Shown: positions 35,270-48,233 of the stretch, piece by piece
Layout: the number at the start of each line of letters is the position of its first letter
Numbering within the stretch: position 1 is the first letter of the stretch
Source of the DNA: Catellatospora methionotrophica
GTDB taxonomy: Bacteria; Actinomycetota; Actinomycetes; Mycobacteriales; Micromonosporaceae
Assembly (NCBI RefSeq): GCF_011297335.1
Contig: NZ_JAAOTJ010000020.1
Location: 1 to 64,000, forward strand
Direction: 5' to 3'
Length of the DNA: 64,000 bases
Program-made: the position numbers and the translations under genes
The notes under the pieces: generated by a model
What the model was told of the DNA's origin: nothing
Databases searched by the model: none
Seen by the model: only the letters and a program-made list of their open reading frames with translations

Positions 35270-35351
35270 GGGAGCGCTCCCGGCGCGGCGTCGTCTCCAG
35301 CAGGCCCGGAGAAAGTTCTGCAAACTGTAGGGCAACCCATGCAACTTATTT

Positions 35352-35371
35352 GCACGATCGTGCCCTACACT
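35352..35371 (+). promoter_or_regulatory. Promoter and candidate operator of the first LacI gene
   Basis: A perfect 12-bp palindrome GCACGATCGTGC (35352-35363) is followed by the -10 hexamer TACACT (35366-35371), 8 bases before the ATG at 35380. The palindrome lies between -10 and -35, where a repressor would block polymerase. Autoregulation is inferred. Confidence 0.55.
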
Positions 35372-35379
35372 TGCGTACC

Positions 35380-36399
35380 ATGACGCGCAGACTCGCCGAA
35401 GTGGCGAAGTACGTGGGAGTGAGCACGGCAACCGTGAGCAGAGTGCTCAACGGCCGCCCCGGCATCTCCGAGGCCACCCGAACGGCCGTGCTCACCGCGC
35501 TGGACGTGCTCGGCTACGAGCGGCCCACCAAGCTGCGCGGCGAACGGGCCCGGCTGGTCGGCCTCGTGCTGCCCGAGTTGCAGAACCCCATCTTCCCGGC
35601 GTTCGCCGAGGTCGTGGCCGGAGCACTGGCCAAGCGCGGGTTCACCCCGGTGCTGTGCACCCGCACCGCCGACGGCGTGGCCGAGTCCGACTACGTGGAC
35701 ATGCTGCTGGAGCAGCAGGTCTCCGGCGTGATCTTCGCGGGCGGCAACTACGCCCAGGCCGACGCCGACCACGAGCACTACCGGCGGCTGCTCGACCGGG
35801 GACTGCCCGCGATACTGGTCAACGCCGGCATCGACGACCTGGGCTTCCCCCGGGTGTCGGCCGACGACGCGGTGGCCACCGAGCAGGCGTACAACCACCT
35901 GGTGTCGCTGGGCCACGACCGGATCGGCCTGATCCTGGGCCCGCCCGACCACATGCCGTCCTCGCGCAAGCGCCAGGCCTTCCCCGGCGCCGACGACATG
36001 GTCGAGCGCACCATCTTCTCCATGGAGGGCGGCCACGCCGCCGCGGCGCGGCTAATCTCGCGCGGCGTCACCGGCCTGATCTGCGCCTCCGACGTTCTGG
36101 CCCTCGGCGCGGTCCGCGGCGCGCGGCGGCTGGGCCTGTCCGTGCCCGGTGACGTGTCACTGGTCGGCTACGACGACTCGGCCGTGATGACCTGCACCGA
36201 TCCGCCGCTGACCACGGTGCGCCAGCCGATCGAGGCGATGGGCCAGGCCGCGGTGGCCCTGCTGGTCAGCGAGATCGCGGGCAACGTGGTCCCCGCCGAC
36301 GAGCTGCTGTTCGAGACCGAACTCGTGGTACGCGGCTCCACCGCCGCCGTGCCCGCCAGCGCCCGCCTCGTCCCCGCCCAGGCCCGCGCCACCGACTGA
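35380..36399 (+). CDS. LacI family transcriptional regulator (first copy)
   Basis: The 339-residue regulator has an N-terminal helix-turn-helix (RRLAEVAKYVGVSTATVSRV), the hinge helix and a periplasmic-binding-type effector domain (about 60-325). Its first 80 residues differ from those of the second LacI (45945-46943) at only about two positions, while the effector domains diverge; this copy is about four residues shorter near residue 200. It lies upstream of the sugar ABC genes, and an alpha-glucoside or nigero-oligosaccharide effector is inferred from that context. The ATG is probably leaderless. The start was fixed by the family N-terminus. Confidence 0.94.
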   Translation: MTRRLAEVAKYVGVSTATVSRVLNGRPGISEATRTAVLTALDVLGYERPTKLRGERARLVGLVLPELQNPIFPAFAEVVAGALAKRGFTPVLCTRTADGVAESDYVDMLLEQQVSGVIFAGGNYAQADADHEHYRRLLDRGLPAILVNAGIDDLGFPRVSADDAVATEQAYNHLVSLGHDRIGLILGPPDHMPSSRKRQAFPGADDMVERTIFSMEGGHAAAARLISRGVTGLICASDVLALGAVRGARRLGLSVPGDVSLVGYDDSAVMTCTDPPLTTVRQPIEAMGQAAVALLVSEIAGNVVPADELLFETELVVRGSTAAVPASARLVPAQARATD

Positions 36400-36416
36400 C
36401 CCCTCTCCGCCTGACC

Positions 36417-36454
36417 GGCTCCGTCCACCCCGTGCAAACGGTGTGCACGGAGCC
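36417..36454 (+). terminator. Terminator hairpin after the first LacI gene
   Basis: GGCTCCGT (36417-36424) pairs with ACGGAGCC (36447-36454). An alternative inner pairing of CCGTGCA with TGCACGG at 36430-36450 is possible. It starts 18 bases after the stop. Confidence 0.6.
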
Positions 36455-36506
36455 GTCCTCGTTTCCGTTTCCGTCGCCGTCGGGGCGGAGGAGGTAGGTA
36501 GGCGTG

Positions 36507-36571
36507 ATGATCGCTGTCTCGGGTCATGATCTGCGGTCCAACCACACCTTCTGACCCGAAACGGCGATCAT
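36507..36571. repeat. Intergenic hairpin, family B copy 2
   Basis: The arms 36507-36526 and 36552-36571 (20 bases each) pair at 18 positions. The arm contains ATGATCGCTGTCTCGGGTCA, nearly the same as the copy at 23909. Here it lies about 110 bases after the LacI stop, between tandem genes. Confidence 0.78.
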
Positions 36572-36642
36572 GCGCCCCGCCGCCGCGACGCTCCCCTGCC
36601 ACGGCCCGGCCCACCGCACGGCGGCTCCCGAGGGCGCTTGAA

Positions 36643-36657
36643 ACGTTGCGTAAACGT
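36643..36657. promoter_or_regulatory. Candidate LacI operator (distal)
   Basis: ACGTT-N5-AACGT is a perfect inverted repeat that contains TTGCGTAA (36646-36653). The same octamer recurs at 36931-36938, just upstream of the operon promoter. Binding by one of the LacI regulators is inferred. Confidence 0.4.
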
Positions 36658-36930
36658 GACCGCCGTCGGCCACGGTCGGTCCCCTCCCCGCACCGGCTGC
36701 ACCAGCCGCGTCCCAGCTCACCCCCGGATGCCCCCTCCGTTGCCGCCTTTGCGCCCGTGAGCTGCACTTTCATGACTTCTCGGCGATCACAGCGCACACC
36801 ACACCGCAAAGACCTGACCGCCTGGAAGCCAGATTGCGAAACGGTATCGACACATGGCATGTGAACCAGGCCACACGCGTCCCTTCCAGCGCAGACGTCA
36901 GCCGACGCGCGACAACGTTCGGTCGAAAAA

Positions 36931-36980
36931 TTGCGTAACTATCTCGACACCTTGCGGACATGAGTCGCCATCGCTACAGT
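36931..36980 (+). promoter_or_regulatory. Promoter of the sugar ABC operon with proximal operator-like site
   Basis: The -35 TTGCGG (36952-36957) and -10 TACAGT (36975-36980) are separated by 17 bases, a good sigma-A promoter. TTGCGTAA at 36931-36938 lies just upstream. The mRNA would carry a leader of about 125 bases. Confidence 0.65.
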
Positions 36981-37113
36981 GACTTCACCTAAGCCTGACC
37001 TTGGAAAGTGCGAGGCAGGTCACACGGAAGTCAGCGCAATACCAAGAGGCCGCCGCGGCGATCCGTCCTCGCGGCTCCGTAGATCAAGAACTGTTTCCCG
37101 AAGGGATGGACAG

Positions 37114-38493
37114 ATGTCCGTACCGCACTTCCGGAAGGTCGCGGCCATCGCGCTCGCGACCGGCCTGGGACTGGGCCTCGCGGCCTGCTCCACCAAGAGC
37201 GACGATGACACGGATGCTGCCGGCAAGACGATCATCACGGTCGACTGCCAGCCGGTCGGCGCGCAGAAGAACCTGCTGCAGGCGTGGAACGACGACGTCA
37301 AGGCGTTCGAGGCGGCCAACCCCACCATCAAGATTAAGAGTGTTTCGGTCGGCACCCAGTGCGCCAACCCGCCGGACTTCACCGCCCGCCTGCAGGGCGG
37401 CTCGATGACCGACGTGTTCTACGGCTACATGACCGACGTGCAGCAGGTCATCGACTCCGGCCAGGCGATGGACATCACCGCCTACGCCAACAAGGACAAC
37501 ATCCCGAACTGGGACGACGTGCTCGGCGACGCCAAGAACACGTTCACCAAGGACGGCAAGGTCTGGGGCATCCCGACCAAGAACTACTCGATGGGCCTGG
37601 TCTACAACAAGACCCTGTTCACCAAGGCCGGTCTGGACCCGAAGAGCCCGCCGAAGACCTGGGCCGAGGTTCGCGAGGCCGCCAAGAAGATCTCGGCGCT
37701 CGGTGACGGCATCGCCGGCTTCGGCGAGTACAGCTCGGGCAACACCGGCGGCTGGCACTTCACCGCCGAGATCTACTCGCAGGGCGGCGCCCTGGTGACG
37801 GCCGACGGCAAGAAGGCCGACTTCAACAACGACATGGGCAAGAAGGTTCTGCAGAACCTCAAGGACATGCGTTACGGCGACAACAGCATGGGCGCTCGCC
37901 AGCTGCTCGGCTGGGGCGACCTGCTGACCATCGCGGGTGCCGGCAAGGTCGGCATGTTCGTCGGCGCGCCCGACGCGACCACCGCGATCGTCACCCAGTT
38001 CCAGGGCAAGTACGAGGACTGGGCGATGGGCGCCATGCCCGGCCAGGACGGCGCGGCCAAGGGCACCCTCGGCGGCGGTGAGGGCTACTTCTTCAAGAAG
38101 GGCCTGACCGACGACCAGGTCAAGGCCGGTCTGAAGTGGCTCGCCTTCGAGAAGCTGACCGTGGGCAAGGGTCAGTTCGACTACGCCCGGGCCAAGGCTC
38201 AGGGCGAGCAGGTCGGTCTGCCGCAGCCGCAGCTGTTCACCCCGGGCAGCACGTCGCAGAAGGCCGAGTTCGAGCAGCGCAAGGCGAACGGCAACATCTC
38301 GCCGGACGACTTCGCCGCCTTCGAGAACAACCCGGTCACGATCAAGTTCGAGCCGGCCAACGCGCAGGGCATCTACGCGATCCTCGACGGTGCGATGTCG
38401 GCGATCCTGACGAACCCGAACGCGAACGTCGACGCGGAGCTGAAGAAGGCCGAGGAGAAGGTCAACCAGCTCCTCGCCCAGGCCGCCAAGTGA
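37114..38493 (+). CDS. Carbohydrate ABC transporter substrate-binding lipoprotein
   Basis: The 459-residue extracellular sugar-binding protein has a signal peptide and lipobox LAAC with the lipidated Cys at 25, followed by a type I (MalE-like) binding domain. It delivers oligosaccharide to the two permeases encoded downstream. The start at 37114 follows AAGGGA and gives a normal-length signal peptide. The likely ligand is an alpha-gluco-oligosaccharide released by the GH87 enzyme of the same locus; this is inferred from context. A strong hairpin between this gene and the first permease probably raises the level of this protein relative to the membrane subunits. Confidence 0.95.
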   Translation: MSVPHFRKVAAIALATGLGLGLAACSTKSDDDTDAAGKTIITVDCQPVGAQKNLLQAWNDDVKAFEAANPTIKIKSVSVGTQCANPPDFTARLQGGSMTDVFYGYMTDVQQVIDSGQAMDITAYANKDNIPNWDDVLGDAKNTFTKDGKVWGIPTKNYSMGLVYNKTLFTKAGLDPKSPPKTWAEVREAAKKISALGDGIAGFGEYSSGNTGGWHFTAEIYSQGGALVTADGKKADFNNDMGKKVLQNLKDMRYGDNSMGARQLLGWGDLLTIAGAGKVGMFVGAPDATTAIVTQFQGKYEDWAMGAMPGQDGAAKGTLGGGEGYFFKKGLTDDQVKAGLKWLAFEKLTVGKGQFDYARAKAQGEQVGLPQPQLFTPGSTSQKAEFEQRKANGNISPDDFAAFENNPVTIKFEPANAQGIYAILDGAMSAILTNPNANVDAELKKAEEKVNQLLAQAAK

Positions 38494-38499
38494 GTTAGG

Positions 38500-38533
38500 G
38501 ACGGGGAGCCGGGCACCACGCCGGCTCCCCGTC
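38500..38533 (+). terminator. Hairpin between binding protein and permease genes
   Basis: A perfect 13-bp stem (38500-38512 with 38521-38533) closes an 8-base loop 7 bases after the stop. Within an operon this typically attenuates read-through or protects the upstream mRNA, so that the binding protein is made in excess. Confidence 0.7.
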
Positions 38534-38576
38534 CTCGCGCGGACCTGACCCCGCACTTTCCCCCAGGAGTGATGAC

Positions 38577-39530
38577 ATGGCGATCGCCACCGTTCCGGGC
38601 GCCGGCATCGACGTCGGCAGCCAAGCGCCAGCACCCGTCGATCCGCGACGCGCCCGGCGCAACCGCCGCCTCAAGGACAACCTCACCGGTTACGCGTTCC
38701 TGATCGGCGCGGTCATCTGCTTCGCGTTCTTCTCCTGGTACCCGATGGTCCGCGGCGTGGTGATGAGCTTCCAGCGCACCCGTGCGGGCGAGACCACCTG
38801 GGTCGGCTGGGACAACTACGAGCGGATCATCAACGACCCGAGCTTCTGGACGGCCTGGCAGAACACCCTGTACTTCACGGTGCTCGCCCTGGTCGCCGGC
38901 TACGCGATCCCCTTCTTCCTGGCGGTGCTGCTCAACGAGTTCCGGCACGCCAAGGGCTACCTGCGCATCCTGATCTATCTGCCGGTGATGCTTCCCCCGG
39001 CCTCCGCGCTGTTCCTGTTCAAGTACCTCGCGTACGACCCCAGCGACGCCGGCCTGTTCAACTCGATCCTCAAGGGGCTCGGCCTGCCGACCTCGCAGTG
39101 GATGCAGTCGACGGACATGACGATGCCCGCGATGGTGCTCGCCTCGACCTGGATGAACATGGGCGGTGCGGTGCTGATCTACCTCGCCTCGCTGCAGAAC
39201 ATCCCGGGCGAGCTGTACGAGGCAGCCGAGCTCGACGGCGCGGGCCTGTGGCGGCGGATCACCAACGTGACCATCCCGCAGACGAAGCTGATCCTGTCGC
39301 TGATGGCGATGCTCCAGGTGGTGGCGACCATGCAGCTGTTCATCGAGCCGCTGATCCTGGCCAACGGCGCGGGCTCGGAGGACTCGGCCACTTCGGTCGT
39401 GTACCTCATCTACCAGCACGGCTTCTTCCAGAACGACCTCAACGGCGCGGCGGCGCTGGGCGTGATCATGCTCGTGGCGCTGATCGGCTTCTCCGCTGTC
39501 TACGCCCGACTGAACGCGCAACAGGACTAG
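38577..39530 (+). CDS. Sugar ABC transporter permease (MalF-like)
   Basis: The 317-residue integral membrane subunit has six predicted helices. Its EAA loop reads YEAAELDGAGLWRRITNVTIP near residues 218-238 and contacts the ATPase. The N-terminal cytoplasmic tail of about 35 residues is Arg-rich. ATG at 38577 follows AGGAG. The second permease follows after 11 bases. No ATP-binding subunit is encoded nearby; actinomycete sugar importers of this class commonly share a single MsiK-type ATPase encoded elsewhere. Confidence 0.95.
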   Translation: MAIATVPGAGIDVGSQAPAPVDPRRARRNRRLKDNLTGYAFLIGAVICFAFFSWYPMVRGVVMSFQRTRAGETTWVGWDNYERIINDPSFWTAWQNTLYFTVLALVAGYAIPFFLAVLLNEFRHAKGYLRILIYLPVMLPPASALFLFKYLAYDPSDAGLFNSILKGLGLPTSQWMQSTDMTMPAMVLASTWMNMGGAVLIYLASLQNIPGELYEAAELDGAGLWRRITNVTIPQTKLILSLMAMLQVVATMQLFIEPLILANGAGSEDSATSVVYLIYQHGFFQNDLNGAAALGVIMLVALIGFSAVYARLNAQQD

Positions 39531-39541
39531 GGGAACGAGTC

Positions 39542-40429
39542 ATGGCGCACCAATCCGAGACACGCTCACTGGTCTCCTTCGCGCAGCTCCAGCGGGGCCG
39601 CGGCAAGGTGATCTACTGGACCCTGCTCACCGTCGTGGTCATCGCGTTCACGCTCGTCTTCATCGGGCCGCTGTACTGGATGATCACCGGCGCGCTGAAG
39701 TCCAGCCCCGAGCTGGCACAGACCCCGCCGACCCTGTGGCCGGCCGACCCGCAGCCGGAGAACTACTCCGACGCGTGGGAGCGGCTGGACCTGGCCAAGC
39801 TGCTGTTCAACACCTTCTACTACGCGGTCGGCGCGCTGGTGTTCCAGCTCGTGCTGGACACGGCGGCGGCGTACGCGCTGTCGAAGCTGCGGCCGAAGCT
39901 GGGCAACCTGATCCTCGGCATGATGCTGGCGACGCTGATGATCCCGGCGATGGTGCTGATCATCCCGCAGTACGTGACCGTGATCGACCTGCCGATCCTG
40001 CACATCAGCCTGATCGACTCGCCGTTCTCGATCTGGCTGCCGGCGGTCGCCAACGCGTTCAACATCTTCCTGCTGAAGCGGTTCTTCGACTCCATCCCCG
40101 AGGACCTGATGTCGGCGGCGCGGATGGACGGCGCGGGCTCGATGCGCACGCTCTGGTCGATCGTGCTGCCGATCTCCCGGCCGATCCTGGGCGTGGTCTC
40201 GATCTTCGCGGTGACCGCGGTGTGGAAGGACTTCCTCTGGCCGAAGCTGGTCATGCCCTCGCCGGAGACCCGCACCATCAGCGTCGGCATCTACGCCTTC
40301 TCCGGCGGTACGCCGCAGAACGTGGTCGTCGCCGCGGCGGTCATCGCCGCGATCCCGACCATCGTGTTCTTCCTGATCTTCCAGCGCAGCATCATGTCCG
40401 GCCTCACCGCCGGCGGTCTCAAGGAGTAG
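39542..40429 (+). CDS. Sugar ABC transporter permease (MalG-like)
   Basis: The 295-residue second membrane subunit has six helices and the EAA-type loop MSAARMDGAGSMRTLWSIVLP at about residues 188-208. It pairs with the upstream permease. ATG at 39542 has a modest GGGGAA ribosome site. The glucosidase gene begins 76 bases downstream on the same strand, so import and intracellular hydrolysis are probably expressed together. Confidence 0.95.
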   Translation: MAHQSETRSLVSFAQLQRGRGKVIYWTLLTVVVIAFTLVFIGPLYWMITGALKSSPELAQTPPTLWPADPQPENYSDAWERLDLAKLLFNTFYYAVGALVFQLVLDTAAAYALSKLRPKLGNLILGMMLATLMIPAMVLIIPQYVTVIDLPILHISLIDSPFSIWLPAVANAFNIFLLKRFFDSIPEDLMSAARMDGAGSMRTLWSIVLPISRPILGVVSIFAVTAVWKDFLWPKLVMPSPETRTISVGIYAFSGGTPQNVVVAAAVIAAIPTIVFFLIFQRSIMSGLTAGGLKE

Positions 40430-40505
40430 CCGCCAGCGGGCCCCGCCCGCCGCGCCCGCTCCGCTCACGTCCAGTTCGTGTTCCGTAACAGGAAGCAGGT
40501 ATCTC

Positions 40506-42155
40506 GTGGTTGACATCGGAGCCCCCTTGCCGCAGGGGGTGCGCTCGGCGACGGACGCCTGGTGGCGCGATGCCGCCATCTACCAGGTGTATGTCCGCAG
40601 CTTCGCCGACGGCAACGGCGACGGCGTCGGCGACCTGGCCGGTGTCCGGGCGCACCTGACGTACCTGAGGGACCTGGGCATCGACGCCATCTGGTTCAAC
40701 CCCTTCTACGTCTCGCCCCAGGCCGACGGCGGGTACGACGTGAGCGACTACCGCAACATCGACCCGATCTTCGGCGACCTGGCCGAGTGCGAGGAGATGA
40801 TCCGGGAGGCGCACGCGCTGGGCATCCGCGTCATCGTCGACGTGGTCCCCAACCACTGCTCCGACCAGCACCCCTGGTTCCAGGCGGCGCTGGCGGCGGG
40901 CCCCGGCTCGCCCGAGCGCGAGCTGTTCTGGTTCCGGCCGGGCCGCGGCGAGCACGGCGAGCTGCCGCCGACCGAGTGGACGTCGAACTTCGGCGGCGGC
41001 ACCTGGACCCGGGTCGCCGACGGCGAGTGGTACCTGCACCTGTTCGACGGCGCGCAGCCCGACTGGAACTGGGACCACCCGGCGGTGCGCACCGAGCACG
41101 AGAACGTGCTGCGGTTCTGGTTCGACCGGGGCGCCGACGGCATCCGGATCGACTCGGCCGGTCTGCTGATCAAGGACCCGGCCCTGCCCGAGGTCGGCAC
41201 CACCGAGCGGCACCCGTTCGAGGACCTGGACGAGGTGCACGACGTGTACCGCGCCTGGCGGCGCATCGCCGAGGAGTACGGCGGCCGCGCGCTGATCGGC
41301 GAGGTGTGGATGCCCGACGTGCAGCGGTTCACGAACTACCTGCGCCCGGACGAGATGCACACCGCGTTCAACATGAACTTCCTGTGCTCGCCGTGGGACG
41401 CCGCGCTGCTGCGTGATGTCATCGACGACACCCTGAAGTCGCACGCGCCGGTGGACGCCCCCGCGACGTGGGTGCTGTCGAACCACGACGTGACCCGCCA
41501 CGTGAGCCGGTACGGCCGCGCCGACAGCTCGTTCACCTTCAAGGGGCGTACCCACGAGACCCCGGTCGACCTGGAGCTGGGCACCCGCCGGGCGCGCGCC
41601 GCGATCATGCTGGCGCTGGCCCTGCCCGGCTCGGCCTACCTGTACCAGGGCGAGGAGCTGGGCCTGTGGGAGGTCGAGGACATCCCGGCCGAGCTGATGC
41701 AGGACCCGATGTGGCACCGCACCGCGGGCGCCGACCCGGGCCGTGACGGCTGCCGGGTGCCGCTGCCCTGGTCGGGCGCGCAGGCGCCGTTCGGGTTCAG
41801 CCCCGACGGGGCGCAGGCCAAGCCGTGGCTGCCGCAGCCGGCGGCCTGGAAGGCGTACACCGCCGAGGCGCAGACCGGTGACCCGGGCTCGATGCTGGAG
41901 CTGTACCGCCGCTGCCTGAGCCTGCGCCACAGCGAGCCCGCACTCGGCGACGGCCCGATGGCGTGGCTGGACAGCTCCGCGCAGGTCCTGTCGTTCCGCC
42001 GTCCCGCCCCGGACGGCCTCGACCTGATCTGCGTGGTCAACCTCGCCGACCACGCCGTCGACCTGCCCGCGTACGCGCAGGTCCTCGTCTCCAGCGCCCC
42101 GCTGGACGGCAACCGCCTGCCCGCGGACACCGCGGTCTGGATCCGCCCCGCCTGA
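40506..42155 (+). CDS. GH13 family alpha-glucosidase, cytoplasmic
   Basis: The 549-residue enzyme has no signal peptide and all GH13 regions: DVVPNH, the nucleophile Asp216 in GIRIDSAG, the acid/base Glu266 in IGEVW and Asp328 in LSNHD. The second QADGGYDVSDYRNIDP region is typical of oligo-1,6/alpha-glucosidases. It is expected to hydrolyse imported alpha-linked gluco-oligosaccharides to glucose. Linkage preference (1,3, 1,4 or 1,6) cannot be read from the sequence. The GTG start at 40506 follows GCAGGT. It is located between the importer and the secreted GH87 enzyme. Confidence 0.94.
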   Translation: MVDIGAPLPQGVRSATDAWWRDAAIYQVYVRSFADGNGDGVGDLAGVRAHLTYLRDLGIDAIWFNPFYVSPQADGGYDVSDYRNIDPIFGDLAECEEMIREAHALGIRVIVDVVPNHCSDQHPWFQAALAAGPGSPERELFWFRPGRGEHGELPPTEWTSNFGGGTWTRVADGEWYLHLFDGAQPDWNWDHPAVRTEHENVLRFWFDRGADGIRIDSAGLLIKDPALPEVGTTERHPFEDLDEVHDVYRAWRRIAEEYGGRALIGEVWMPDVQRFTNYLRPDEMHTAFNMNFLCSPWDAALLRDVIDDTLKSHAPVDAPATWVLSNHDVTRHVSRYGRADSSFTFKGRTHETPVDLELGTRRARAAIMLALALPGSAYLYQGEELGLWEVEDIPAELMQDPMWHRTAGADPGRDGCRVPLPWSGAQAPFGFSPDGAQAKPWLPQPAAWKAYTAEAQTGDPGSMLELYRRCLSLRHSEPALGDGPMAWLDSSAQVLSFRRPAPDGLDLICVVNLADHAVDLPAYAQVLVSSAPLDGNRLPADTAVWIRPA

Positions 42156-42285
42156 CCCCGTCGCTTGCGGGTCGAAGGAGCCCGCAGCTCTGCATCGCCA
42201 AGGCCGTGGCGGCGCGTCTTCCCCCGAATCGCGCCGCCTCATTCCGCTCCGGTCACCCCGTCCCCACCGGAAGGCAGCACAGGCA

Positions 42286-45200
42286 ATGAACGAGCACAGC
42301 ACCCCACCCGCACCGACGGGCCGCGCGTCAGCGCCCCGCCGCCGCACCGGGCTGGCCGCCGCGGCCGCCAGCTCGCTGCTGGCCGGCGTGGCGCTGGTCG
42401 CCGTGGCCGCGTACGGGACCTCCAGCCCCGACCTGCAGCAGGTCGCGTCGATCTCCCCGTTCTCGATCGCCGGGCGCGGCGCGACCGTCGCGTTCAAGGA
42501 GTTCGAGGCCGAGGAGCAGCCGACCAACGGCACGATCCTGGCCCACACCCGCTACTACGGCCAGCTCGCCTCCGAGGCGTCCGGCCGCCAGGCCGTCGTC
42601 CTCGACGCCGTCGGCGAGTACGTCGAGTTCACCCTCACCGCGCCCGCTGACTCGATCAACTTCCGCTACAGCCTGCCGGACAACGCCGCGGGCACCGGCC
42701 GTGACGCCACCATCGACCTGCGGGTCAACGGGTCGCTGCTGAAGACCGTCCCGGTGACCTCGAAGTACAGCTGGTACTACGGCGGCTACCCGTTCAACAA
42801 CAACCCGGGTGACACCAACCCGCACCACTTCTACGACGAGCAGCGCAGCCTGCTCGGCAGCACGTACCCGGTCGGCACGAAGATCAGGCTGCAGGTGAAC
42901 TCGACGGCGCAGTCGCCGACGTTCACCATCGACCTGGCCGACTTCGAGGTCGTCGGCGGCCCGAAGACGAAGCCCACGAACGCGATCGACGTGGTGGCCG
43001 ACTTCGGGGCCGACCCGAACGCGGGTGCCGCCGACAACACGGCCAAGTTCCAGGCCGCGGTCGACGCGGGCAAGGCGCAGGGCCGGATCGTCTGGATCCC
43101 GGCGGGCACGTACACCGTCTGGGACCACATCGTGGTCGACGGCGTGACCCTGCAGGGCGCGGGTATGTGGCACAGCGTGCTCACCGGCCGCCACCCCACC
43201 CAGCGCAACCGCGCCGTGGGCGTCTACGGCAAGTACGTGCCCAACGGCGGCTACACCGGCCCGGTGCGCTCGCACGAGGCGAACGGCCCGAGCCGCAACG
43301 TCACCCTCAAGGACTTCGCCATCATCGGCGACATCCGCGAGCGCGTCGACGACGACCAGGTCAACGCCATGGGCGGGGCCATGACCAACTCGGTGGTCGA
43401 CCACGTGTGGATGCAGCACACGAAGGTCGGCGCCTGGATGGACGGCCCGATGGACAACTTCGTCATCAAGAACAGCGTGATCCTGGACCAGACCGCCGAC
43501 GGCGTGAACTTCCACACCGGCGTCACCAACTCGACGGTCACCCAGACGTTCGTGCGCAACACCGGTGACGACGGCCTGGCCATGTGGCCGGACCGCATCC
43601 CGAACGTCAACAACACGTTCTCGTTCAACACGGTCGGCGTGACCGTGCTGGCCAACAACATCGTGTCGTACGGCGGCCGGGACATCAAGATCACCGACAA
43701 CGTGGTCGCGGACACCATCACCAACGGCGGCGGCATCCACATCGGCAACCGCTACCCGGGCGTCAACTCCGGGGCGGGCACCGCCGTGGCGGGCACGTTC
43801 ACGGTGTCCCGCAACACCCTGATCCGCACCGGCAACTCCGACTTCAACTGGAACTTCGGCGTCGGCGCGATCTGGTTCTCCGGCCTCAACGAGCCCATCG
43901 CCGGGGCGACCATCAACATCACCGACACCGACATCCTGGACAGCTCGTACGCGGCGCTGCACTGGATCGAGGGCGGGGCCAGCGGCATCCACTTCAAGAA
44001 CGTGCGCATCATCGGCGCGGGCACGTACGCGCTGCAGGTGCAGTCGCAGGGCCAGGCCACGTTCGAGAACGTGACCGCCACCGGCATCGCGCAGAGCAAC
44101 CCGATCCACAACTGCGTGGGCCCGTCGTTCCAGATCACCCAGATCGGCACCAACTCGGGCTGGTTCGCCAACCCGCCCGCGTGCACCGGCATCTGGCCGA
44201 CCCCGGTCTGGACCGGTGGCCCGACGACCCCGCCGAGCAACAGCCCGGCGCCGTCCAACAGCCCCCCGCCGGCCACGGCGCAGCTGAGCCTGAGCACGTC
44301 GAACCTGGTGTTCGGCACGCAGAACGTGGGCACCACCAGCGCCGCGCAGACGGTCACCGTCAGCAACACCGGCACCGTCACCGCGAACCTGAGCGGCGTC
44401 GCCGTCAGCGGCGACTTCGCCCGGACCACGAACTGCGGCACGACGCTGGCGGCCGGTGCGAGCTGCACCGCCTCGGTGACGTTCACGCCGACCGCGACCG
44501 GCACCCGCAACGGGCAGCTGTCCGTGGGCAGCAACGCGCAGGGCAACCCGCACGTGGTGAACCTGACCGGCTCGGGCTTCAACCCCAACGGCAACCTCGC
44601 CGCGGGCCGCCCGACCACGCAGACCAGCCAGACCCAGTCGTACGGCTCGGGCAACGCGGTCGACGGCGACGTGAACACGTACTGGGAGAGCGTCAACAAC
44701 GCCTTCCCTCAGTCGATCACGGTTGACCTCGGCACGGCTGCGACGGTCAACCAGGTCGTGCTGAAGCTGCCGCCGTCGTGGGGCACCCGGACGGAGACCG
44801 TGCAGGTGCTCGGCTCGACGGACGGCTCGAACTTCAGCAGCCTCGCCGGTGCGGCGGGCTACACGTTCAACCCGGCCACCGGCAACAGCGCGACGATCAA
44901 CTTCACCGCCGGATCGCGCCGCTACGTCCGGGTGACGGTCACCGGCAACACCGGCTGGCCCGCGGGCCAGTTCAGCGAGTTCGAGGTGTACGGCAACGGC
45001 ACCCCGCCCCCGCAGACCCCGGCGATCGGTCTGTCCTCGTCGAGCCTGTCGTTCGCGAACCAGACCGTCGGCAGCACCAGCGGCGCGCAGTCGGTGACGG
45101 TGACCAACACCGGCACGGCGGCGGCGACGCTGGGCGCGGTGAACGTCAGCGGCGACTACGCCCGCACCACCACCTGCGGTTCCTCGCTGGCGGCGGGCGC

Positions 45201-45747
45201 GTCCTGCACGATCTCGGTGACGTTCACGCCGACCGCGTCCGGGGCCCGCTCCGGCTCGGTCAGCTTCACCAGCAACGCCACCGGCAGCCCGCACACGATC
45301 AACCTGTCGGGCAACGGCGTCACCACGAACACGAACCTGGCGCTGAACCGCCCGGTGACCGAGAGCGGCCACGCCGACGTCTACGGCGCGGGCAACGCGG
45401 TCGACGGCAACGTCAACTCCTACTGGGAGTCGCTGAACAACGCCTGGCCGCAGACGATCACGGTGGACCTCGGCGCGACGACCTCGGTCTCCCGCGTCGT
45501 GCTCAAGCTCCCGCCGGCCTCGTCCTGGGCCACCCGCACCCAGACCCTGTCGGTCCTGGGCAGCACCAACGGCTCCTCCTTCAGCACGGTCAAGGCTTCG
45601 GCCGGGTATGTCTTCAACCCGTCCTCGGCCAACACCGTCACCATCACGTTCACCGCCACGAGCCAGCGCTACCTGCGGCTGAGCTTCACCGGCAACACGG
45701 GCTGGCCCGCCGGCCAGCTCTCGGAGTACGAGGTCTACGCCTCGTAG
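42286..45747 (+). CDS. Secreted GH87 alpha-1,3-glucanase (mycodextranase family) with tandem ASH and F5/8C domains
   Basis: The 1153-residue extracellular enzyme has a twin-Arg-containing N-terminus and signal helix (about 20-44), a CBM6/35-like beta-sandwich (about 67-225) and a GH87 beta-helix catalytic domain (about 230-640). Its three Asp, 405 in ADGVNFH and 428-429 in TGDDGLA, have the 23-residue spacing I recall for characterised GH87 enzymes. A Pro/Ser linker follows (about 645-665). The C-terminus is two copies of an ASH-like choice-of-anchor domain (about 666-765 and 912-1012), each followed by a discoidin/F5-8C module (about 770-902 and 1015-1153). Substrate is alpha-1,3-glucan or nigeran, as in fungal walls; exact specificity is inferred from the family. 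Confidence 0.92.
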   Translation: MNEHSTPPAPTGRASAPRRRTGLAAAAASSLLAGVALVAVAAYGTSSPDLQQVASISPFSIAGRGATVAFKEFEAEEQPTNGTILAHTRYYGQLASEASGRQAVVLDAVGEYVEFTLTAPADSINFRYSLPDNAAGTGRDATIDLRVNGSLLKTVPVTSKYSWYYGGYPFNNNPGDTNPHHFYDEQRSLLGSTYPVGTKIRLQVNSTAQSPTFTIDLADFEVVGGPKTKPTNAIDVVADFGADPNAGAADNTAKFQAAVDAGKAQGRIVWIPAGTYTVWDHIVVDGVTLQGAGMWHSVLTGRHPTQRNRAVGVYGKYVPNGGYTGPVRSHEANGPSRNVTLKDFAIIGDIRERVDDDQVNAMGGAMTNSVVDHVWMQHTKVGAWMDGPMDNFVIKNSVILDQTADGVNFHTGVTNSTVTQTFVRNTGDDGLAMWPDRIPNVNNTFSFNTVGVTVLANNIVSYGGRDIKITDNVVADTITNGGGIHIGNRYPGVNSGAGTAVAGTFTVSRNTLIRTGNSDFNWNFGVGAIWFSGLNEPIAGATINITDTDILDSSYAALHWIEGGASGIHFKNVRIIGAGTYALQVQSQGQATFENVTATGIAQSNPIHNCVGPSFQITQIGTNSGWFANPPACTGIWPTPVWTGGPTTPPSNSPAPSNSPPPATAQLSLSTSNLVFGTQNVGTTSAAQTVTVSNTGTVTANLSGVAVSGDFARTTNCGTTLAAGASCTASVTFTPTATGTRNGQLSVGSNAQGNPHVVNLTGSGFNPNGNLAAGRPTTQTSQTQSYGSGNAVDGDVNTYWESVNNAFPQSITVDLGTAATVNQVVLKLPPSWGTRTETVQVLGSTDGSNFSSLAGAAGYTFNPATGNSATINFTAGSRRYVRVTVTGNTGWPAGQFSEFEVYGNGTPPPQTPAIGLSSSSLSFANQTVGSTSGAQSVTVTNTGTAAATLGAVNVSGDYARTTTCGSSLAAGASCTISVTFTPTASGARSGSVSFTSNATGSPHTINLSGNGVTTNTNLALNRPVTESGHADVYGAGNAVDGNVNSYWESLNNAWPQTITVDLGATTSVSRVVLKLPPASSWATRTQTLSVLGSTNGSSFSTVKASAGYVFNPSSANTVTITFTATSQRYLRLSFTGNTGWPAGQLSEYEVYAS

Positions 45748-45760
45748 TCCACCCGATCCC

Positions 45761-45791
45761 CGGTGGAGAGGGTGAGCGGCCCTCTCCACCG
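45761..45791 (+). terminator. Terminator hairpin after the GH87 gene
   Basis: A perfect 11-bp stem (45761-45771 with 45781-45791) and a 9-base loop follow the stop by 13 bases. Confidence 0.75.
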
Positions 45792-45803
45792 GTCGAGTGA
45801 AAG

Positions 45804-45847
45804 GAAGGGCACCTTCACATCGTTTCGCGATGGAGAAGGTGCCCTTC
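45804..45847. repeat. Nested intergenic hairpin (family D)
   Basis: GAAGGGCACCTTC at 45804-45816 pairs with its complement at 45835-45847. A 5-bp stem (CATCG/CGATG) lies in the loop, and each arm can fold on itself (GAAGG/CCTTC). It immediately follows the GH87 terminator. Confidence 0.7.
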
Positions 45848-45884
45848 TTAACACCGCCAGGAGGGTCGGCCCTGGCCGATGCGT

Positions 45885-45937
45885 GATCCGGTATACCGGA
45901 TCGCCCGGCCACGGTCACGCGGGCGAACCGCTACAGT
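45885..45937 (+). promoter_or_regulatory. Palindrome and -10 element of the second LacI gene
   Basis: GATCCGGTATACCGGATC (45885-45902) is a perfect 18-bp palindrome about 30 bases upstream of the -10 hexamer TACAGT (45932-45937), which lies 7 bases before the GTG at 45945. The mRNA is probably leaderless and autoregulated; both points are inferred. Confidence 0.55.
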
Positions 45938-45944
45938 GACCGGC

Positions 45945-46943
45945 GTGACGCGCAGACTCGCCGAAGTGGCGAAGTACGTGGGGGTGAGCGAGGCGACGGT
46001 GAGCCGCGTGCTCAACGGCAAGCCCGGCATCTCCGAAGCGACCCGCACCGCCGTACTGACCGCCCTGGACGTGCTCGGCTACGAGCGGCCCACCAAGCTG
46101 CGCGGCGAACGCGCCCGCCTGGTCGGCCTCGTGCTGCCCGAGTTGCAGAACCCGATCTTCCCGGCGTTCGCCGAGATCGTGGCGGGAGCGCTGGCGCAGC
46201 GGGGCTTCACCCCGGTGCTGTGCACCCGCACCGAGGAGGGCGTGGCCGAGTCGGCGTACGTCGACATCATGATGGAGCAGCAGGTCTCCGGCGTGATCTT
46301 CGCGGGTGGGCTGTACGCCCAGGCCGACGCCGAGCACGAGCACTACCACCGGCTGCGCCAGCGCGGCCTGCCCGTGGTGCTGGTGAACGCGGCCATAGAC
46401 GGGCTGGGCTTCCCGGTCGTGGCCGCCGACGACGCGGTCGCGGTCGACCAGGCGTACGGGCACCTCTCGTCGCTGGGGCACACGAAGATCGGGCTGCTGC
46501 TCGGGCCGGTCGACCACGTGCCGTCGGCGCGCAAGCTCGCCGCGTTCCGCAAGCGCACCGGGCAGAAGAACCCGCCGGTCGCGCGCACCATCTACTCGAT
46601 GGAGGCGGCGCAGGCCGCGGCGGTGCGGCTGATCAAGGAAGGCGTGACCGGGCTGGTCTGCGCCTCGGACGTGTTCGCGCTCGGCGCGGTGCGTGCGGTG
46701 CGCCGGATGGGGCTGCGGGTGCCGGAGGACATCTCCGTCGTCGGATACGACGACTCGCTGTTCATGGCCTGCACGGACCCGCCGCTGACGACGGTGCGCC
46801 AGCCCATCGGCGCGATGGGCACCGCCGCCGTGGCCATGCTGGTGTCCCAGGTGGACGGCGGCGAGGTCGCCCCCGACGAATACCTCTTCGACCCCGAACT
46901 GGTCGTCCGCGGCTCCACCGCCGTAGTCCCCACCACCACCTGA
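45945..46943 (+). CDS. LacI family transcriptional regulator (second copy)
   Basis: The 332-residue paralogue of the regulator at 35380-36399 shares its helix-turn-helix (RRLAEVAKYVGVSEATVSRV) and the following 60 residues almost exactly, with changes T to E and R to K. The effector domain has diverged, notably in the pocket region (LYAQADAEHEH, LLGPVDHVPSARK). Shared DNA recognition with different ligands is the simplest interpretation. GTG at 45945 aligns with the ATG of the first copy. It follows the GH87 gene and probably controls it or the whole locus. Confidence 0.94.
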   Translation: MTRRLAEVAKYVGVSEATVSRVLNGKPGISEATRTAVLTALDVLGYERPTKLRGERARLVGLVLPELQNPIFPAFAEIVAGALAQRGFTPVLCTRTEEGVAESAYVDIMMEQQVSGVIFAGGLYAQADAEHEHYHRLRQRGLPVVLVNAAIDGLGFPVVAADDAVAVDQAYGHLSSLGHTKIGLLLGPVDHVPSARKLAAFRKRTGQKNPPVARTIYSMEAAQAAAVRLIKEGVTGLVCASDVFALGAVRAVRRMGLRVPEDISVVGYDDSLFMACTDPPLTTVRQPIGAMGTAAVAMLVSQVDGGEVAPDEYLFDPELVVRGSTAVVPTTT

Positions 46944-47015
46944 CCCACCCCACCCCCAACCCACCCCGCGCGTCTCGCGCCGCCCGCGCGCCGCCCACCC
47001 CGCGCGTCTCGCGCC

Positions 47016-47076
47016 GCAAGTCTTAAAGACTCGCGGCCAGAGCGCATGGGTGAGGCCGCGACTCTTTAAGACTTGC
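47016..47076. repeat. Intergenic hairpin, family A copy 2
   Basis: The arms 47016-47038 and 47054-47076 (23 bases) pair with a single mismatch around a 15-base loop. The core CAAGTCTTAAAGACT and the 23/15/23 geometry match the element at 30-90. It sits between the convergent second LacI and acetyltransferase genes. Confidence 0.78.
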
Positions 47077-47122
47077 GCGACGCGGGGAGACGGCGTTCGC
47101 GCCGCCGCTGGGTGGGTGGGGG

Positions 47123-47670: not shown

Positions 47671-47684
47671 TTTTGGAGGCGGGC

Positions 47685-48233
47685 GTGGAGGCGGCAGTAC
47701 TGCGGGCCGAAGGGCTCGGGCTGCGTACCCGCCGGGGGTGGGTCTTCCGGGATCTCGACCTGGCGGTCCAACCCGGCGAGCTGGTCACCCTGACCGGACC
47801 TGCTGGCGGCGGCCGGACCAGTGCGCTGCTGGCGCTCGGCGGCCGCTTCCGAACCACCCACGGCTCACTGACCTCCGGGCGTACGGCGTTCGGCCTGGTC
47901 CCGGGCGTCAACGAGCCCGAACCGGCGCTGACCGTCGCCGAGCACGTCGGAGAGCGGCTGCGCCTGCTCGGCCTGACCCGCCCTTGGCAGCGCCGTCATC
48001 CGCTGGTCGTGGGGGAGTCCGGCGACCTGGTCCGCGACCTCGCGCCACTCGACCGCCACCGCCTGATGATCAAGCTCGCCCTGCTGGAGGACCCCGACGT
48101 GCTGCTCGTCGACGACATCGACGTGGGCCTGACCCCCGTCGAGACGCAGACCCTGCTCAGTGACCTTGCCGCGACCGGCCGCGCGGTCGTCGCCGTCCGC
48201 CGCGGCGACAGTGCGCTGGGGGTGGAGCGGTGA
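47685..48233 (+). CDS. Degenerate ABC transporter ATP-binding domain protein
   Basis: The 182-residue product has the length and order of an ABC ATPase core, but its catalytic motifs are altered. The P-loop is GPAGGGRTS with Arg44 in place of the invariant Lys. The signature region reads DLAPLDRHR instead of LSGGQ. Walker B is LLVDDIDVGL with Asp in place of the catalytic Glu. It probably binds nucleotide weakly or not at all and may serve as a partner of the YhgE membrane protein that overlaps it by 4 bases. GTG at 47685 follows GGAGG; a TTG four codons earlier is the alternative. Confidence 0.85.
   Translation: MEAAVLRAEGLGLRTRRGWVFRDLDLAVQPGELVTLTGPAGGGRTSALLALGGRFRTTHGSLTSGRTAFGLVPGVNEPEPALTVAEHVGERLRLLGLTRPWQRRHPLVVGESGDLVRDLAPLDRHRLMIKLALLEDPDVLLVDDIDVGLTPVETQTLLSDLAATGRAVVAVRRGDSALGVER

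Follow-up and report, generated by a model that had tools for sequence, protein, structure and literature searches.

The locus considered here occupies positions 35380–46943 on the plus strand of a 64,000-nucleotide stretch of DNA from the actinomycete Catellatospora methionotrophica; the whole stretch is called the window. It comprises seven genes, encoding two LacI-family regulators (LacI1 and LacI2) and, between them, the solute-binding protein (SBP) and two permeases (PermA and PermB) of a carbohydrate ATP-binding cassette (ABC) importer, an alpha-glucosidase of family GH13 and a secreted enzyme of family GH87 (Table 1). All seven were confirmed in place, and the main Pfam domain of each protein scores above the curated cut-off. 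The original prediction, that a secreted GH87 enzyme, an importer and a cytoplasmic GH13 enzyme are grouped together and bracketed by two LacI genes, is thus correct for the window. Judging by sequence comparisons, this is very probably a catabolic locus for an alpha-1,3-linked glucan, that is, alpha-1,3-glucan or alternating nigeran. Two gene starts were moved. The SBP most likely starts at the ATG at 37114 rather than at 36979, since the lipobox comes next, and LacI2 most likely at the GTG at 45945 rather than at 45879, since its first residues then agree with those of LacI1. The two regulators are 76% identical.

The GH87 protein has a signal-like N-terminus and a catalytic part at about residues 60–640; the CatAgl_D1 and CatAgl_D2 domains score 157.8 bits (E 2.9e-46) and 49.1 bits (E 5e-13), the curated cut-off being 27. 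The best solved relative is the alpha-1,3-glucanase 7c7d (E 9.5e-100, 338 bits), the mutanase of Streptomyces thermodiastaticus (PMC11475409). The enzyme carries Asp405, Asp428 and Asp429, the predicted catalytic residues, at the stated places, and the mutated residues of the Asp-to-Ala chains 6k0p and 6k0q align to Asp405 and Asp428; a chain mutated at the third aspartate was not among the alignments compared. The roles of the catalytic aspartates of GH87 are described in PMC10696023. Among the matches listed, the protein is 94% identical to a record named C. chokoriensis.

The importer has the CUT1-type content, SBP_bac_1 and two BPD_transp_1 permeases. The nearest solved binding protein is 7bvt (E 1.1e-19, 73.8 bits). 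No importer ATPase was found among the seven genes or the nine scanned flanking genes of the window, as the original prediction had noted; the sole ABC_tran match in the flanks (47673–48233) adjoins an ABC-2 exporter gene. A candidate for this role, an MsiK-like gene with 79% identity to the probe sequence, lies on contig C28 of the same genome.

The GH13 protein carries the triad Asp216, Glu266 and Asp328 in its Alpha-amylase domain, and no signal peptide is apparent by eye. It may belong to GH13 subfamily 30. The best solved matches, 8yif and 8yie, are labelled 'alpha-glucosidase'. We know of no GH13 group with hydrolysis of alpha-1,3 nigero-oligosaccharides as its main activity; this enzyme may cleave alpha-1,3 bonds.

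Table 1. Genes and candidate regulatory features of the locus.
Feature	Position	Strand	Remarks
LacI1, LacI-family regulator, 339 aa	35380–36399	+	Pfam LacI, Peripla_BP_3
Solute-binding lipoprotein of carbohydrate ABC importer, 459 aa	37114–38493	+	SBP_bac_1 E 3e-32; lipobox LAAC
ABC permease A	38577–39530	+	BPD_transp_1
ABC permease B	39542–40429	+	BPD_transp_1
GH13 alpha-glucosidase	40506–42155	+	Alpha-amylase E 1.2e-97, DUF3459
Secreted GH87, 1153 aa	42286–45747	+	CatAgl_D1, CatAgl_D2, two Ig (ASPM/HYDIN), two F5/8 type C
LacI2, 332 aa	45945–46943	+	Pfam LacI, Peripla_BP_3
Palindrome TGCAACTTATTTGCA	35340–35354	+	exact YGCAA-N5-TTGCR; predicted LacI1 operator, upstream of LacI1
Importer promoter, intergenic	36400–37113	+	8 TTGCR/YGCAA half-sites
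GCTACAGTGAC element	36973–36983	+	importer promoter; alternatively a -10 element
Perfect 18-base palindrome GATCCGGTATACCGGATC	45885–45902	+	before LacI2
GCTACAGTGAC, second copy	45930–45940	+	just before LacI2
Inverted repeat, 24-nt arms, 96%	47015–47077	+	3' of LacI2; possibly terminator

The arrangement recurs in other genomes. Named genomes were scanned with two GH13 queries, and the best 80 of 590 confirmed loci, together with two loci of the C. methionotrophica genome itself, were divided into classes by the identity of the SBP, class I having 37% or more. Class I contains 35 loci, 33 of them from other genomes. A GH87 gene is present in the fetched flank of 23 of the 35 (21/33 outside the own genome), and a related LacI gene in the fetched stretch of 30 of the 33. 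None of the 19 class II, 14 class III and 14 unassigned loci has GH87 in the fetched flank. On the GH13 tree (87 rows), two clades have no GH87 gene beside them: a 29-row clade labelled mal-like from its LacI/MalEFG-type surroundings, and an 18-row LacI-GH13-SBP clade. On this tree the label GH87 requires 11 changes, the shuffle mean being 20.5. The tree moves three loci (L081, L086, L107) between the classes other than I, and class I is not shown to be monophyletic. As for the bracket of two LacI genes, it stands at the window but is not general: outside Catellatospora, the fetched stretch contains two related LacI genes at two class I loci (L077, L082) and no related LacI gene at three.

A sister arrangement, LacI-GH13-SBP-permeases, is found in Microbacteriaceae and others (L052, L057, L058, L067–L070, L075, L080, L089, L091, L095, L096, L098), with a serine after the GH13 nucleophile and no adjoining GH87.

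When GH87 was sought anywhere in the genome, it was present in 38 of 49 genomes, specifically in 32/33 with class I loci and 5/14 with class II loci; the L060 genome has seven copies and the L102 genome none. We then considered another 30 genomes, which entered the set through a GH13 gene of class II, of class III or without assignment. Sixteen of them have GH87, and 13 have a binding protein of the window type (E <= 1e-60). All 13 importer genomes have GH87, and none of the 14 GH87-less genomes has the importer; G053, G054 and G056 have GH87 only. The Fisher p for this co-occurrence is 4.8e-6, a statistic that ignores kinship. In nine of the 13 genomes the importer and GH87 genes share a contig and are no more than 5 kb apart; in four they are on different contigs.

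An anchor to a known enzyme is provided by Streptomyces canus. Its cassette (L094) adjoins a GH87 gene whose product scores 1034 bits to 7c7d, and on the 34-row GH87 tree this protein groups in one clade with those of eleven other cassette loci. Hence a cassette of this type works with a near relative of an established alpha-1,3-glucanase. The core of the idea, namely a secreted GH87 enzyme, import, a cytoplasmic GH13 enzyme and LacI control, is supported by these comparisons and by the operator-like sites described below. The predicted pathway, cutting outside, import and hydrolysis inside, gains from recurrence, co-occurrence and L094.

The upstream region of LacI1 contains an exact YGCAA-N5-TTGCR palindrome. 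Of 57 regions upstream of homologous lacI genes, 31 have an exact match to the pattern, whereas 50 shuffles gave a mean of 0.18 and a maximum of 1. It resembles the MalR/AcrC site CTTGC(A/T)G (PMC5526262) and may be the LacI1 operator. The importer promoter has half-sites well in excess of the shuffle mean of 3.1, only 12 of 1000 shuffles being as high, and several of them fall in blocks conserved in the alignment of three Catellatospora genomes. In the LacI-SBP regions of 34 class I loci, 96 half-sites were counted against a shuffle mean of 45 (maximum 64 in 200).

Upstream of LacI2, YGCAA-N5-TTGCR is absent even with one mismatch allowed. The two copies of GCTACAGTGAC suggested another pattern, GYTACAGTRAC, which occurs at three places in the genome, two of them in this locus, whereas the reversed control occurs at five. 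In two relatives the second copy is part of the palindrome GCCGGTTACAGTAACCGGC. GYTACAGTRAC is a weak candidate for the LacI2 operator, since the match had already been noticed when the pattern was defined, and two single-LacI Micromonospora loci also have it before the SBP gene. The longer palindrome before LacI2, GATCCGGTATACCGGATC, is imperfect in two relatives. Visual inspection of the importer promoter had suggested a further palindrome, similar to GGTATCGATACC, but this was discarded; a scan of nine stretches of the own genome with at most two mismatches gave one match here and one unrelated match in L020.

Several observations weigh against the reading as an alpha-1,3-linked glucan locus. 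Twelve of the 35 class I loci lack a GH87 gene in the fetched flank, one class I genome (G025) has no GH87 at all, and GH87 is also present in six of the 18 class II genomes searched (5/14 and 1/4). The genomes are related, many being Streptomyces, and therefore the Fisher p overstates the association. Solved relatives of the binding protein are no closer than the distant 7bvt, and the labels of the nearest solved GH13 proteins are alpha-glucosidase, sucrose isomerase and oligo-1,6-glucosidase. As to the regulatory signal, the exact palindrome is found in none of 56 SBP upstream regions and before none of the other GH87 genes, and half-sites before the seven GH87 genes of the genome do not clearly exceed the numbers in shuffled sequences, the smallest fraction being 0.07. 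In the whole genome (8.39 Mb) the exact palindrome occurs at seven places, two of which precede LacI1 and the LacI gene of a second cassette on contig C24, while the reversed control occurs at 13. A shared GH87 regulon is not supported on these grounds.

The identity of the polymer is where an alternative survives best. It may be nigeran, in which alpha-1,3 and alpha-1,4 bonds alternate, with GH87 acting as a mycodextranase on the alpha-1,4 bonds and the importer and GH13 acting on the mixed-linkage products; we regard this as possible, if somewhat doubtful. A characterised mycodextranase is that of Streptomyces sp. J-13-3. Among the 120 listed relatives of the window GH87, at least 11 (73–77% identity; Micromonospora, Virgisporangium) are named mycodextranase in the source, and mycodextranases are inactive on linear alpha-1,3 chains (PMC13421300), which together make nigeran a possible substrate. 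Moreover, the window GH87 stands apart from the 7c7d-type clade (338 bits, as against 1034 for the S. canus enzyme). On the other hand, the majority of these 120 relatives are named differently, all the names look automatic, and a cassette of the same type adjoins the known alpha-1,3-glucanase type in S. canus.

It is unlikely that GH87 is a mere neighbour of an importer, GH13 and LacI that together serve maltodextrin or alpha-glucosides in general. The genome does contain relatives of the window GH13 on contigs C42 and C32, the C32 copy lying beside a related LacI gene, and this C32 pair is paralogous to the LacI and GH13 of the locus (54% and 59%); the likeness of the operator to MalR/AcrC sites (PMC5526262) points the same way. 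However, the importer, unlike that of the mal-like clade, goes with GH87, and the GH13 enzymes differ at the position following the nucleophile. In GH13 enzymes the residue at this position influences linkage preference; one published passage instead concerns the residues three and four places beyond the nucleophile. This residue, 217 in the window protein, is Ser there, in 33 of 35 class I and in all 18 class II proteins, whereas it is Val in all 26 mal-like proteins and in two of class I. For this count the classes were set by hand from the tree, and five rows were left out (three Val, one Ser, one Ala), among them L048, from the own genome, and L060. Ser217 suggests a linkage preference differing from that of the mal-like enzymes; the signature is shared with class II, which has no adjoining GH87.

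Uptake of a cyclic alpha-glucan, as by the cyclic maltosyl-maltose (CMM) system of Arthrobacter globiformis, is highly improbable: the nearest solved binding protein is indeed the CMM-binding protein 7bvt, which binds a cyclic alpha-1,4/1,6 sugar (PMC7676653), but that match is distant, the seven genes include one GH13 rather than the three of the CMM cluster, and the passages on that cluster name no GH87.

The claim that the locus is self-contained was not borne out, since the ATPase must be sought elsewhere and the genome, which is in 56 contigs, contains a second cassette and six further GH87 genes. The latter lie at L016, L017, L018, L019 and L020, two of them on L018. L018 is the stretch of contig C24 (about 31.2–43.8 kb) with the second cassette, arranged as LacI-SBP-PermA-PermB-GH87-GH13-GH87-LacI; its GH13 is 62% and its SBP 48% identical to those of the window. 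Here, GH87 genes flank GH13 on both sides and a related LacI gene stands at each end. The seven GH87 genes are spread over seven places of the 34-row tree. Recent amplification was rejected, as the seven copies need seven label changes, at least six of which are forced by starred branches.

Close relatives give an indication of how such a cassette changes; the nearest named ones belong to Catellatospora (Micromonosporaceae). C. vulcania (L129) and C. sichuanensis (L130) have all seven proteins, at 93–100% identity to those of the window. The cassette of Catellatospora sp. KI3 (L049) is situated at the same chromosomal site, with flanks at 64–91%, LacI1 at 89%, LacI2 at 91% and GH13 at 81% (among the best 80 of 590 loci), but its importer differs, with the SBP at 44%, PermA at 53% and PermB at 49%. 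The GH87 proteins of L129 and L130, near-identical relatives of the window, are only 44–45% identical to that of KI3. The KI3 importer is closest to the C24 type (70–79%), and the window importer to Micromonospora (72–80%), as is the window GH87 (77%, among the matches listed). Most simply, one of the lineages would have replaced its importer and GH87 and kept the intervening GH13. Co-evolution of importer and GH87 is not supported. KI3 is a single case, and in Mantel comparisons over 22 loci the correlation with GH87 similarity was highest for GH13 (0.72); the SBP gave 0.65, the two permeases 0.66 and 0.55, and LacI 0.56. Hence no special coupling between importer and enzyme is shown.

A broader proposal, which we make tentatively, is that of a portable actinobacterial cassette with a fixed core, whose Ser-marked GH13 would be a dedicated nigero-oligosaccharide alpha-1,3-glucosidase, and into which different GH87 lineages would swap; at a given chromosomal site the importer and GH87 could be replaced, with GH13 and both LacI genes retained.

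For the locus as an alpha-1,3-linked glucan pathway, the following scheme is proposed. The secreted GH87 enzyme would hold the insoluble polymer via its F5/8 domains and cut it outside the cell. The lipoprotein and the two permeases would import nigero-oligosaccharides with energy from a shared ATPase of the MsiK type whose gene lies elsewhere, and the cytoplasmic GH13 would break these sugars to glucose. LacI1 may repress its own gene and, via TTGC half-sites, the importer promoter, until released by the imported sugar or a product; LacI2 would be its paralogue with a different operator. Substrate, import, GH13 linkage, inducer, ATPase partner and the roles of the LacI proteins are what we infer here, rather than features read from the sequence itself.

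The inverted repeat 3' of LacI2 may be a terminator common to LacI2 and a GNAT gene on the opposite strand. The scanned upstream flank encodes a DUF3000 protein, uroporphyrinogen decarboxylase and an amine-oxidase-type flavoprotein, and the downstream flank GNAT, ABC-2 exporter and TetR proteins; two of the nine scanned flanking genes gave no family. ARAGORN found no tRNA genes in the window.

Among known systems, the GH87/GH65/GH31_u1 cluster of Lachnoclostridium phytofermentans (PMC9061262) shares GH87, an ABC importer and LacI with the locus. It belongs to a Firmicute and has a cytoplasmic GH65 nigerose phosphorylase and GH31_u1 where the window has GH13, and its role in nigerose degradation is itself a proposal. 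Pfam found neither GH31_u1 nor GH65 among the seven genes of the window. The new element is GH13 at the place of the GH31/GH65 of this proposed Firmicutes cluster. Agl-ST of S. thermodiastaticus (7c7d) shares GH87 and the three catalytic aspartates with the window enzyme, which differs in having Ig and F5/8 domains and in being of another lineage at 338 bits. MalR/AcrC with malEFG (PMC5526262) shares LacI, an ABC importer and a CTTGC(A/T)G-like operator, while the window has a secreted GH87, a distinct importer and a distinct GH13. The CMM cluster of A. globiformis (PMC7676653) shares an SBP, two permeases and a cytoplasmic GH13 alpha-glucosidase; it differs in having three GH13 enzymes and a cyclic alpha-1,4/1,6 substrate. 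A GH87/GH97/GH99 polysaccharide utilization locus (PUL) predicted in Prevotella melaninogenica (PMC13421300) is likewise an alpha-glucan locus with GH87, of the Bacteroidota PUL type; to the knowledge of the authors of that paper (2026), no GH87 PUL has been characterised experimentally. Streptomyces growing on mutan are known (PMC11475409), and the abstract and passages on them in that paper do not describe this cassette. A search of the open-licence literature by titles and abstract openings found no description of the cassette reported here.

Alpha-1,3-glucan is a major polymer of fungal walls and dental plaque, and little is known about the bacterial uptake of its products. The recurrent cassette makes such a route testable, and offers a candidate alpha-1,3-specific GH13 enzyme and a candidate nigero-oligosaccharide binding protein.

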